Source: Bacteroidota bacterium (lineage in GTDB: Bacteria > Bacteroidota > Bacteroidia > Sphingobacteriales > Sphingobacteriaceae). From it: a DNA stretch of 64,000 nt. A program made the translations under genes and the position numbers. This document shows, in pieces, positions 39,791 to 45,447 of this stretch. Position 1 is the stretch's first letter. Each line of letters opens with the position of its first letter. The DNA is taken from contig JABDHD010000002.1 in NCBI GenBank assembly GCA_013285685.1, positions 1 through 64,000 on the forward strand. The letters run 5' to 3'. Below the pieces are notes generated by a model. That model saw only the letters and a program-made list of their open reading frames with translations. It ran no database searches and had not been told where the DNA came from.

Positions 39791-39863
39791 TCTCGCGCGA
39801 GTGTGTAGCGCCAGGCCGTACGGCTGTGCACGCGTGCGCCGCTGACAGGTAACAAACTATGCA
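39791..39863 (+). repeat. Dispersed palindromic repeat, GCTGACAGGTAA type
   Basis: tctcgcgcgagtgtgtagcg, then ccaggccgtacggctgtgca, then cgccgctgacaggtaacaaa ending ctatgca. The outer agcg/cgct and the inner gtac/gtgcac segments can pair. Confidence 0.7.
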
Positions 39864-39920
39864 GCGTATGTGGTTTAAAAACGGATTTCGATCACCACCA
39901 AAAATAGCCAAATGATTATG

Positions 39921-41380: not shown

Positions 41381-41452
41381 TCTCGCGCGAGGTGCAGCGC
41401 CGGGCTGAGTAGCTGTGTACTCGTGCGCCGCTGACAGGTAACAAACTATGCA
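41381..41452 (+). repeat. Dispersed palindromic repeat, GCTGACAGGTAA type
   Basis: tctcgcgcgaggtgcagcgc, then cgggctgagtagctgtgtac, then gccgctgacaggtaacaaac, ending tatgca. The gagta/tactc pair inside can form a stem where the copy at 39791 has a different sequence, consistent with a conserved fold. Confidence 0.7.
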
Positions 41453-41532
41453 GGTTGCGCAGGCCGCCGCTTGTTGTCACGGCGGTCCCACTGCTCCCGC
41501 AAGCAATTTTCGCTGCCGCAAACCTCCCCCCA

Positions 41533-41660
41533 TGCTCCCGCAAGCCATTTTCGCTGCCGTCCCGATTTATCGGGATGGCCCGCATGCTAAGTAACCGCCA
41601 TACAGGCTGACCATGCGGTAGTTTTCCAATATCAAAGCGTAGGGATAGTTTATTACCTGT
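41533..41660 (+). repeat. 128-bp dispersed repeat, copy A
   Basis: tgctcccgcaagccattttc, cccgatttatcgggatggcc, ccgccatacaggctgaccat, ttttccaatatcaaagcgta and atagtttattacctgt. A second copy (45262-45389) has the same length and order. The first word is itself in tandem at about 41494-41559. It directly adjoins the 3' end of the intron. Confidence 0.85.
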
Positions 41661-41687
41661 AAACGAGCCACCTTACGGCAGCGAAGA

Positions 41688-42241
41688 TGGGCCGAGTAGG
41701 CAAGGGGAATTTCACCCCAAGCCTCTCACAGAACCGTACGTGAAGCTCTCACTTCATACGGCTCGTCTAACTTATCTTTGCGCTTAGGTTCATCCTCGTT
41801 AAAGTTGACCTTGCACTCTAATAAATTAGCTAACCCCTTTGCTCCATTTCCATTACAGAAACTTCATCACTACTACGGGTTAGTCCGCCATCCTTATCAG
41901 CTTCGTTATTCGGCCTCGCAGGTATTACCTCTTGTGCCTTTCGCTTCGCATCTGATAAGGACTTCCCGTGTTTTATACAAAAGCCAGAATAAGAGTCATG
42001 CCACCTCTATGACGATTGCCTTATAGCCAGTATGCAAGTTCCCGCTATAATCTTCACCAGTCCGCAAGAAAACCGGCTTTTGACAATGGGTTTCGCTATC
42101 TCATCACTTCTTCAGTGGTTCATTTGCATTCATCTCTCTTATCCATACCTGACTACTTCCCGTAGCCTTTTCCCCTTTCCGTTCAACACCGGTCCATTAC
42201 TGAACAAGCACCGAGAGGCGGTTTAAAGCCCCCGCTTGCAC
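41688..42241 (-). mobile_element. ORF-less group II intron
   Basis: On the minus strand the element starts GTGCAAGC near 42241 and shows known domain I text (GGATGGCGGACTAACCCGTA, GTAGTAGTGATGAAGTT, TAATGGAAATGGAGCAAAGG). It ends with domain V at 41764-41731, a 34-nt hairpin with AGC triad, GAGA loop and two-base bulge, and domain VI with a bulged A (41697) near the 3' end. In relatives a reverse transcriptase gene follows the GTCAACTTTAACGAGGATG block; here only about 30 nt separate that block from domain V. Exact ends are uncertain by a few bases. It lies 45 bp past the end of the RecA-like gene. Confidence 0.82.
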
Positions 42242-42285
42242 AGCGACTTTGGTAGGCCTACTACCATCTTTTATACAACATTCAA

Positions 42286-43755
42286 TTACCTTTGTATGGC
42301 AATCAATTCACGGCACAACCTGCGGGAGCGACGGGGTTCGTTAAAGTTTTCGTACCTTTCTACCCGGATGGAAACTGCACCAATACTTTCAGCAACCGTA
42401 TTTTCCGGCATTTGCAAATCCGCACATCTTCTAAAGTCATTAGTCATTACGTCATCGGTCATTAGTGCCTCCGCACATCCCTCCTCATCTGCACATTTAT
42501 CAACTGCACATTCCTCCTCATTCGCACATCTGCACATCTGCAAATCCGCACATCTTTTATAGTCATCGGTCATTAGTGCCTCCGCACATCCTTCCTCATT
42601 CGCACATCTGCACATCTGCAAATCCGCACATCTTTTATAGTCATTGGTCATTACGTCATTGGTCATTGGGTAATCTGCATATCGTAAAAGCCGGTTAACC
42701 GTAGCCACGCCTATCCCCAGTTGCCTGCTGATTTCGCGCTGGCTGAGGCCGGTGGCGGCGAGTTCGGCTATTTTATGGGCTAATTGCTGGCGGTACGCAG
42801 CGTTGCGGCTGAGCAGGTGATGGTGTTCGGCGCTGAAGCCTTCGAATTGGAAGTGCAAAAAGGCACCGGGTTTTTGGATGCGGCACAGGCATACGTTATC
42901 GGGGCCGTAGCGCTGGCGGGTGTTGCGCTGTTTGACCTGTTTGAGGTAACACAGATCAGGGTCGGCGGTGCTTTTGCCGATGGCGAAGGCGCTGTCGGCA
43001 AAGTTGATGAGCAGCTTGCTGCCGTGGAGGTCGTCGGCGCTGATGGGCTGGGTGGGGTTGCGCCGTTTGGGGGTATGGGCCAGTACCAGGATGGACAGCT
43101 TGTGGTCGGTTTTTAGCGCTTTGAGGCTTTTCATGAGCGCAAGCGCCACCGCCGAATTTTCGGTGCCGCCGCGCAGGCAGGTAATGTTATCGATGATGAG
43201 CACAGTGGCCTTAACCAGTTTTATTTTATATTCAATGGCGGCAATGAGCAGCTCGTTTTCGTCGACATCGGGCGGTGGGTCGGACAGGTAATTATACTGT
43301 GCCCGGTAAAAATTATCCGAAAATTGGTGGTCCTCGTCGTCCTTACTGTAGCGCAGTCCAAACTGGGCCTGGCTCAGCTCGAAATCGATATAGAGCACCC
43401 GGGCGGGCGGCGCCTGGCAAACGAAAGGCTCAATGCTTTGCCCGCGCGCAATGCTTTCGCCGATTTGTACGGCCAATACCGATTTGCCGATATTGGTATC
43501 GGCAAACAGCATGCACAGTTCGCCCTGGCGCCACAGCTCGCCAAGCAGCATTTTGGCTTCGGGTTCGCGCCGGGCCAGCTCCAGCCAGCGGTTACCTTTT
43601 TCAATAGTAAACAGGCGATGGCAGTCTTTGAGAGAGGGGCGCACGGGTTCGGCGCGTTTTTTTCTTTTAGCAGGGCGGTATTGCACCCCGCGGATTTCGG
43701 CGCGCAGCTGCTCGATAAAGGGCGGGCGTTCGGAAGATGGTTCGAAGGACTCCAT
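42286..43755 (-). CDS. RecA-like (AAA_25/RepA-type) ATPase with HTH and repeat-derived C-terminus
   Basis: The start is the ATG at 43755; an upstream GTG at 43791 overlaps a TAAATTTG -10-like box. The 489-residue protein has Walker A LFADTNIGKSVLAVQIGESI, Walker B TVLIIDNITC, and a HTH GLSQREISRQLGIGVATVNR. It resembles plasmid RepA/DnaB-like helicase-loader ATPases. The last ~150 residues contain tandem blocks (ADLQMCRCANEEGCAEALMT) encoded by word repeats. The N-terminal two-thirds are GC-richer than neighbours. Confidence 0.82.
   Translation of the reverse strand: MESFEPSSERPPFIEQLRAEIRGVQYRPAKRKKRAEPVRPSLKDCHRLFTIEKGNRWLELARREPEAKMLLGELWRQGELCMLFADTNIGKSVLAVQIGESIARGQSIEPFVCQAPPARVLYIDFELSQAQFGLRYSKDDEDHQFSDNFYRAQYNYLSDPPPDVDENELLIAAIEYKIKLVKATVLIIDNITCLRGGTENSAVALALMKSLKALKTDHKLSILVLAHTPKRRNPTQPISADDLHGSKLLINFADSAFAIGKSTADPDLCYLKQVKQRNTRQRYGPDNVCLCRIQKPGAFLHFQFEGFSAEHHHLLSRNAAYRQQLAHKIAELAATGLSQREISRQLGIGVATVNRLLRYADYPMTNDVMTNDYKRCADLQMCRCANEEGCAEALMTDDYKRCADLQMCRCANEEECAVDKCADEEGCAEALMTDDVMTNDFRRCADLQMPENTVAESIGAVSIRVERYENFNEPRRSRRLCRELIAIQR
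42400..42690 (-). repeat. Word repeats inside the ATPase coding frame
   Basis: On the plus strand, words such as gcacatctgcaaatccgcac and tagtcatcggtcattagtgc recur several times in nearly fixed order, encoding the repeated RCADLQMCRCANEE and MTDDY protein segments. The reading frame stays open through all copies. This is the same kind of repetition seen in intergenic dyads, here translated. Confidence 0.8.
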
Positions 43756-43864
43756 TGGAGGGTTGGTTGACAGGGTTGTAACGATTACCACAAATTTAAG
43801 GGGTTGCAGCGGTTTAGGTGGTGACAGTGTTTTGTCAGTAGGGGGAATGGCGTTTAGGGCTTAG

Positions 43865-45261: not shown

Positions 45262-45389
45262 TGCTCCCGCAGCAATTTTTCGCTGCCGTCCCGATTTATC
45301 GGGATGGCCGGCGTGCTAAGTAACCGCCACGCAGGCTGACCATGCGCTAGTTTTCCAATATCAAAGCGTAAGCATAGTTTATTACCGGT
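45262..45389 (+). repeat. 128-bp dispersed repeat, copy B
   Basis: tgctcccgcagcaatttttc, cccgatttatcgggatggcc, ccgccacgcaggctgaccat, ttttccaatatcaaagcgta and atagtttattaccgg, matching copy A at 41533-41660 over its full length. Followed by an inverted aacaggtaatagactt at about 45430. Confidence 0.85.
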
Positions 45390-45447
45390 CAAAGGGCCAC
45401 AAGCCGGGAGGCTTGCGGTTGCGACCGAAGCTAACAGGTAATAGACT

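Follow-up and report, generated by a model that had tools for sequence, protein, structure and literature searches.

The window analysed here, a 64,000-nt stretch of Bacteroidota DNA, carries on its minus strand a group II intron that has no reverse transcriptase (RT) and ends in unusual bases. This locus raises the question of whether such an intron is still intact, how it came to lose its RT, and how it could have reached its present site. The reading that we consider probable is that it is an intact group II intron, that the RT was lost from domain IV (DIV) of an RT-bearing ancestor, and that the RT-less form, which occupies two unrelated sites, was most likely mobilised in trans. The intron is an RT-less group II intron of the ordinary kind with an unusual end pair, U...G, in which U is the first base and G the penultimate one.

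The first-pass annotation had recognised, on the minus strand, the parts of a group II intron in their proper sequence, including a 34-nt domain V (DV) and a domain VI (DVI) with a bulged A, and had placed the intron at 41688-42241. The parts were confirmed: both Rfam models, RF01999 and the DV-DVI model RF00029, matched above their gathering thresholds, and the 34-nt DV hairpin, within which we take the catalytic triad to lie, and the unpaired A of DVI were located (Table 1). The borders, however, had to be corrected. The 3' end lies past DVI, and the 5' end was moved from 42241 to 42318, because the copies at unrelated loci are alike up to that base and because EBS1 in domain I (DI) pairs with IBS1 in the adjoining exon. 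Also missing from the first-pass annotation were a second RT-less intron of the same genome and the U...G ends.

In the window copy, EBS1 and IBS1 form six pairs, five Watson-Crick and one G-U, and EBS1 varies together with IBS1 between copies, for example, in L008, L045, L047, and L060. The minimum free energy of the intron was -199.1 kcal/mol as compared with -172.7 (SD 8.1) for 20 shuffled sequences, none of which reached a value as low. In the consensus structure of DI-DIII, predicted from an alignment of eight relatives in which some rows are cut by a few bases at the 5' end, 61 of the 141 predicted pairs were changed on both sides in at least one sequence with the pairing kept. The termini, 5' UUGUG...GC 3', deviate from the usual boundary, GUGYG...AY. 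Since this boundary holds for the vast majority of group II introns only (PMC4424553), and since U...G exceptions have been published, the assignment to group II rests on the other features, namely, the DV hairpin of about 34 nt, the DI scaffold with its exon-binding site, and the DVI with a bulged A.

Table 1. Features of the RT-less intron and its flanks (positions in the window).
Feature	Position	Strand	Basis
RT-less group II intron, 628 nt	41691..42318	-	Rfam; copies at other loci aligned; EBS1-IBS1 pairing; folding z -3.25
First intron base, U (consensus G)	42318	-	register by homology, backed by a relative's empty site
Penultimate intron base, G (consensus A)	41692	-	alignment and reading of the ends
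IBS1 CGCAGG, 5' exon	42319..42324	-	pairs with EBS1
EBS1 CUUGCG, domain I hairpin loop	42063..42068	-	pairs with IBS1
Rfam RF01999 group-II-D1D4-2 match	42147..42265	-	83.9 bits, gathering 36
Rfam RF00029 Intron_gpII match, DV-DVI	41691..41766	-	62.7 bits, gathering 40, model 1-77
Shortened domain IV, ~73 nt, one hairpin	41765..41837	-	alignment and fold; RT gene there in relatives
Domain V, 34 nt	41731..41764	-	RF00029, 62.7 bits
Domain VI, unpaired A at 41697	41691..41730	-	RF00029 alignment and fold
AAA_25 ATPase ORF	42286..43791	-	AAA_25 67.9 bits; last 10 codons and stop from intron 5' end
139-nt dispersed repeat, 3' flank, outside intron	41533..41671	-	second copy 45262-45400, 88-90%

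Neither an RT reading frame nor a match to an RT was found within 41691-42318, and a tblastn search with 11 related RTs gave only seven chance-level matches to the intron, the best of them 11 residues long at E 0.12. Among 399 genomes of the family, 31 contained similar DNA, the genome of the window included. Close relatives that carry an RT occur in G303 (two), G234, G264, and G105; their RTs, of 415-445 codons, are encoded in DIV, at the place where the window copy has its short hairpin. Across the 5' ~450 nt, these relatives are 81-87% identical to the window intron, and DV-DVI also matches in all of them except G264, which has a different DVI. L042, L043, L044, and L047 resemble the window intron in these parts and in the kind of IBS1 site, but differ from it in the RT of 416-445 codons in DIV and in their G...A ends; the close RT-bearing relatives read GUGUG...GAC, whereas the window intron (contig C2), its copy in G014, and the second RT-less intron on contig C104 read UUGUG...GGC. 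L042, L044, and L047 encode RTs that exceed the cut-off of TIGR04416. Moreover, the stretch AACUUUAACGAGGAUGA, which lies upstream of the RT start codon in the relatives, has been kept in the window copy, and the gene is absent. These comparisons support an origin of the window intron in an RT-bearing one whose DIV lost the RT gene, in line with the earlier proposal that a maturase had been lost. Two loci of G264 are unusual in other respects. L045 has, at about 1909-1985, a normal DV followed by a different DVI-like end, as though recombination had taken place between two introns, and a second RT lies directly downstream of it. L046 is a copy with U as the first base, in which the RT reading frame is shortened and broken and the 3' half, with the 3' end, is missing.

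The same RT-less intron was found in another genome of the genus, G014, with 585 of 631 aligned columns identical (92.7%) and with DV-DVI identical in 77 of 77 positions. The flanks of the two copies, compared over 6 kb on each side in the window and about 4 kb on each side in G014, showed no general similarity; the matches were limited to 48 nt at the junction, most of which is the 5' end of the intron, a 171-nt stretch of 75% identity in a different arrangement, and three stretches of 17-21 nt. A search for the upstream gene in G014 gave only partial matches elsewhere and a few bases at the junction. By these sequence comparisons, the RT-less form is present at two unrelated sites. As two genomes share this loss at sites that are unrelated, mobilisation in trans is the most likely course, and the comparison suggests that the window intron moved after the loss of its RT with the help of a borrowed protein. 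We propose that the ancestor was an RT-bearing bacterial intron that lost the RT gene from DIV and kept its ribozyme, and that an RT/maturase acting in trans would have mobilised the RT-less form. EBS1 would bind IBS1, the bulged A of DVI would attack the 5' junction, and the ligation of the exons would be aided by a contact of the first and penultimate bases, in which U...G would replace G...A.

The genome of the window, an assembly of 206 contigs that is 71% complete, gave two matches to the RVT_1 profile, on contigs C41 and C87. The first, truncated where its contig begins, is a group II RT (382.7 bits), which is 35-38% identical to the RTs of L042, L043, L044, and L047, the type expected of a cognate, and 31-39% identical over the ten RTs compared. 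The second (G000 C87:10864-11568; L010 2367-3938) is an RT of 523 aa that resembles Drt2, an antiviral RT (372.6 bits, slightly below the cut-off of 390); it was rejected as a group II helper, since it reached only 65.6 bits with the group II model. The genome thus yielded one distant group II RT and no close one, and a helper RT of the cognate type was not found in this 71%-complete assembly. In G014, five places matched RVT_1, including the RT of L060, and at none of them was an L042-type RT the best match. The second RT-less intron of the window's genome, on C104, is 653 nt long and matches the D1D4-2 model with 103.5 bits; its 5' part is much diverged, and the RT-bearing intron that the tree places closest to it is L060, on contig C4 of G014. 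Dependence of the window intron on a helper RT is plausible from these sequences.

RT-less introns are rare in bacteria and are mostly found alongside a related RT, an exception being C.te.I1 of Clostridium tetani (PMC4424553). Two published systems are comparable to the window intron. In Thermosynechococcus, the RT of the TeI3 introns was likewise removed by a deletion in DIV, the same deletion is found at many sites, and the introns are mobilised in trans by TeI4 RTs (PMC2882425); in that system the genome contains the driver RTs and they were tested, whereas the helper of the window intron is putative. These RT-less introns of T. elongatus, moved by the RTs of other introns, are the best model for the window intron. 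C.te.I1 is, like the window intron, RT-less in a genome in which no related RT was found, but it has been shown to splice, with a shifted 5' splice site (PMC4424553), whereas the window intron is known from sequence and from an incomplete genome.

C.te.I1, which self-splices in a genome described as free of a related RT (PMC4424553), also speaks for an alternative in which the window intron would be a protein-free, self-splicing, immobile form, the two copies of which spread by other means, such as a plasmid or recombination. The 171-nt stretch in the flanks of both copies could then be shared mobile DNA, and G099 is an example of a genome without an RVT_1 match in which an RT-less intron of a different type is present. 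This alternative is nevertheless unlikely, as the copies in C2 and G014 lie at unrelated sites, each with an IBS1 that fits EBS1, as retrohoming predicts, and as the genome G389 carries a different RT-less intron seven times, in nearly identical form, at the stop codons of SusD genes. Movement in trans after the loss of the RT stays our preferred explanation.

The intron repeated in G389 belongs to a set of 12 copies, 668-677 nt long, with G...A ends and without an RT, each located directly 3' of a stop codon: L052, L053, and L070-L074 in G389 (mean identity of the seven, 99.96%), L075 and L076 in G234, L077 in G089, L078 in G099, and L080 in G003. Ten of their targets encode ...QNPGY-stop, one QNPNY, and one QNPGW; Pfam identified the upstream gene as SusD in both of the cases tested, L052 and L053. 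Short RT-like remnants were seen in L078 and L080 (34 residues at E 0.0003 and 27 residues at E 0.002, respectively). No match to RVT_1 was obtained in G099 and G089, the latter of which has contigs that begin within the 3' ends of introns. Other relatives without room for an RT (L215, L217, L218, and L219) are located on plasmids of Tenacibaculum, Rhizobium, Methylomonas, and Neochlamydia. In G118, at two places (L051), a group II intron follows directly after the apparent DV-DVI end of another one.

In the window, the intron starts inside the AAA_25 ATPase ORF, near its 3' end, so that the effect of the insertion on the host gene is confined to its tail: the last ten codons and the stop are encoded by the intron, and the spliced ORF is predicted to terminate in PSSLP. 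The 3' part of this ORF contains imperfect direct repeats of 70 and 46 nt (42380-42653). The dispersed repeat noted in the first-pass annotation next to the intron does exist; it measures 139 nt and starts 19 nt beyond the intron. The suggestion that the intron was trapped in this repeat or spread with it was dropped, since the other copy of the repeat has no Rfam intron match and since the DNA around the intron in G014 is unrelated. A second direct repeat, of 62 nt and 85% identity, is present downstream of the intron at 39803-39864 and 41392-41453, near the 139-nt repeat. The joined empty targets of L041, L008, L060, and L043 are predicted to form strong hairpins, as in G014, GCCGCAAG/CC...GGCUUGUGGC, with the intron in the 5' arm. 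Joined sites folded at -17 kcal/mol or below in 4 of 13 cases (G014, C104, L060, and G303b), a count made without a shuffle control, and insertion into hairpins may be regarded as a lead from such predictions.

The U...G ends of the window intron were compared with those of related introns collected from the family genomes, the best 80 of 516 RT loci in genome_contigs, 10 loci in viral_contigs, and plasmid relatives. A 5' end could be read in 98 introns and both ends in 91, near-identical copies included; 32 further loci had no usable 5' end. Among the 91, the ends were G...A in 66, G...C in 15, and U...G in 10, and not a single intron was mixed. Matches to the 3' end, found in 17 of the 31 family genomes, numbered 39, of which four had a penultimate G. 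Two of the G...C introns (L204 and L206) probably end one base earlier, in ...CAC, which would make them G...A. Five others (L155, L160, L163, L166, and L184) end in TGCC; one base earlier they would be G...G, against the rule, and, by our reading, their RT-gene targets give ADDF only in the CC register. RmInt1 likewise has a CC end (PMC4238363). Exact patterns of GGC-ended DV-DVI had no matches in genome_contigs and viral_contigs; these patterns were too strict, since GGC-ended introns do occur in genome_contigs.

The ten U...G introns are those of C2, C104, and G014 (C61, L041), L059 in G234, L120 in an Ignavibacteria MAG, L121 in Lunatibacter salilacus, L122 in a Planctomycetia MAG, L129 in a Bacteroidetes MAG, L170 in Terrimonas pollutisoli, and L216 on a plasmid of Caballeronia sp. 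SBC1. Six of them (L059, L120, L121, L122, L129, and L170) carry an RT. On this ground, and because the RT-less introns at SusD genes have G...A ends, the idea that U...G ends go with the loss of the RT was rejected. The same counts bear on the possibility that the window intron is a dying relic, which ceased to splice and to move after the RT was lost and whose ends merely mutated. The assembly does lack a cognate RT, both ends are off GUGYG...AY, and there need be no selection for splicing where the insertion lies so close to the 3' end of its ORF. We hold this possibility to be quite improbable, given that the same ends occur in the six RT-bearing introns, that none of the 91 introns has only one end changed, and that the G014 copy, with its DV-DVI unchanged over 77 nt, points to movement after the RT was lost. 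An intact intron remains the reading that we follow.

It had to be asked whether U is truly the first base. In the 73 rows with G as the first base, EBS1-IBS1 pairing peaked at the proposed junction, with 27 perfect matches against at most 11 at any other shift. The register was less sharp in the nine rows with U: the mean was 5.0 at both shift 0 and shift -1, with three and two perfect matches, respectively. Seven of the nine had a six-pair match at EBS1, and the fit of L059 and L046 was unclear. Moving the 5' splice site upstream by one base would place G first in C2, G014, and C104; in L059, L120, L121, and L122, the preceding base is C or T, so the shift cannot restore G. The RT-less U...G intron L216 (756-1420) provides an empty site, as it is nested in domain I of another, RT-bearing group II intron, forming a twintron on the Caballeronia plasmid. 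Its removal joins GTGGTGGTG-AGCGACCG, which is uninterrupted in L193 (84% over 513 nt) and L192. Over 22 nt, the proposed border gave one mismatch with L193 as compared with two or three at other shifts, and with L192 it tied with shift -1 at two mismatches each. Thus, the site one base upstream fits worse with L193 and equally with L192, and the comparison of these sequences supports the proposed borders.

The linkage of the two end bases was examined on trees. U as the first base required six changes on a tree of 78 rows, built from the 5' halves with the first five bases excluded, and seven on a tree of 82 rows, five of these changes being forced by supported branches on each; the penultimate G required six changes on the 82-row tree. 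Such changes may be gains or losses, and they are read here as gains of U...G. Five independent pairs of rows on supported branches differed in the first base, and in all five the penultimate base differed likewise (sign test, p 0.0625, the lowest value reachable with five pairs). In a two-trait Markov model, run on one tree with a midpoint root and branch lengths as given, linked change (logL -26.0) was favoured over independent change (logL -48.9), with LR 45.9, 4 df, and p 2.6e-9. In a forward test, GGC ends were searched in 400 genomes and in 395 genomes across the phylum. Beyond the introns already read, this added a single genome, G771, in which two 3' ends lie where contigs begin, and a search there for 5' ends with G or T, one mismatch allowed, found two places, both with U. 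These introns are of the L120 type, with their halves on different contigs, and add no new origin.

Taken together, these comparisons indicate that, very probably, the first base of group II introns evolves in step with the penultimate one, the two forming a matched pair; independent changes between G...A (or G...C) and U...G would number five or more, and they concern introns with and without an RT from Bacteroidota, Ignavibacteriota, Planctomycetota, and Betaproteobacteria. The window intron looks like one case of this recurrent matched swap, and a physical U...G contact in it would be expected. That the two bases are instead a lineage marker inherited together, with no structural covariation, might be argued from the four of ten U...G introns that form one clade (L059, L120, L121, and L122) and from the p value of the sign test. 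With the forced changes on the tree, the likelihood ratio in favour of linked change, and the listing of U-G as a compensatory pair (PMC8283771), we consider it very improbable; L046, the one row with U and no partner, has no 3' end. Hardly credible is an RT gene dropped in metagenome assembly, since the same RT-less form is present in G014, given as 100% complete in 80 contigs, even though the window's own assembly is fragmented and incomplete.

According to PMC4424553 and PMC8283771, group II and spliceosomal introns have in common a contact between the first and penultimate bases, without which the second step of splicing is not efficient. This contact is credited to Chanfreau and Jacquier 1993 by PMC3669008 and PMC4238363, and PMC8283771, citing the same work for U-G as a compensatory pair, tabulates U-G for TeI4h. 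Unusual ends with U first and G penultimate, as in the window intron, were also reported for the fungal RT-less intron SPAM3 (UUGCG...GC; PMC8208691) and for UHB.I2 (UUGCG...GU; PMC7923331). TeI4h, SPAM3, and UHB.I2 are described as single cases, whereas here ten related U...G introns, several independent changes, and a phylogenetic test are available. In the literature covered, to which subscription journals mostly do not belong, we found no description of recurrent natural covariation of the ends; as far as these sources go, RT-less bacterial introns and single U...G introns have already been published, and the recurrent covariation apparently has not.

That both bases have changed together repeatedly in nature is comparative evidence for the end contact in living introns, and, if the matched evolution of the two bases is true, it would amount to a natural comparative proof of this contact. 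The swap to U...G parallels the A...C ends of some spliceosomal introns. Introns with U...G ends may be given wrong borders or escape searches for GUGYG...AY, and the pairing would provide a rule for finding those that were missed. The RT-less copies, in turn, are further examples of introns that apparently depend on the enzyme of another element.
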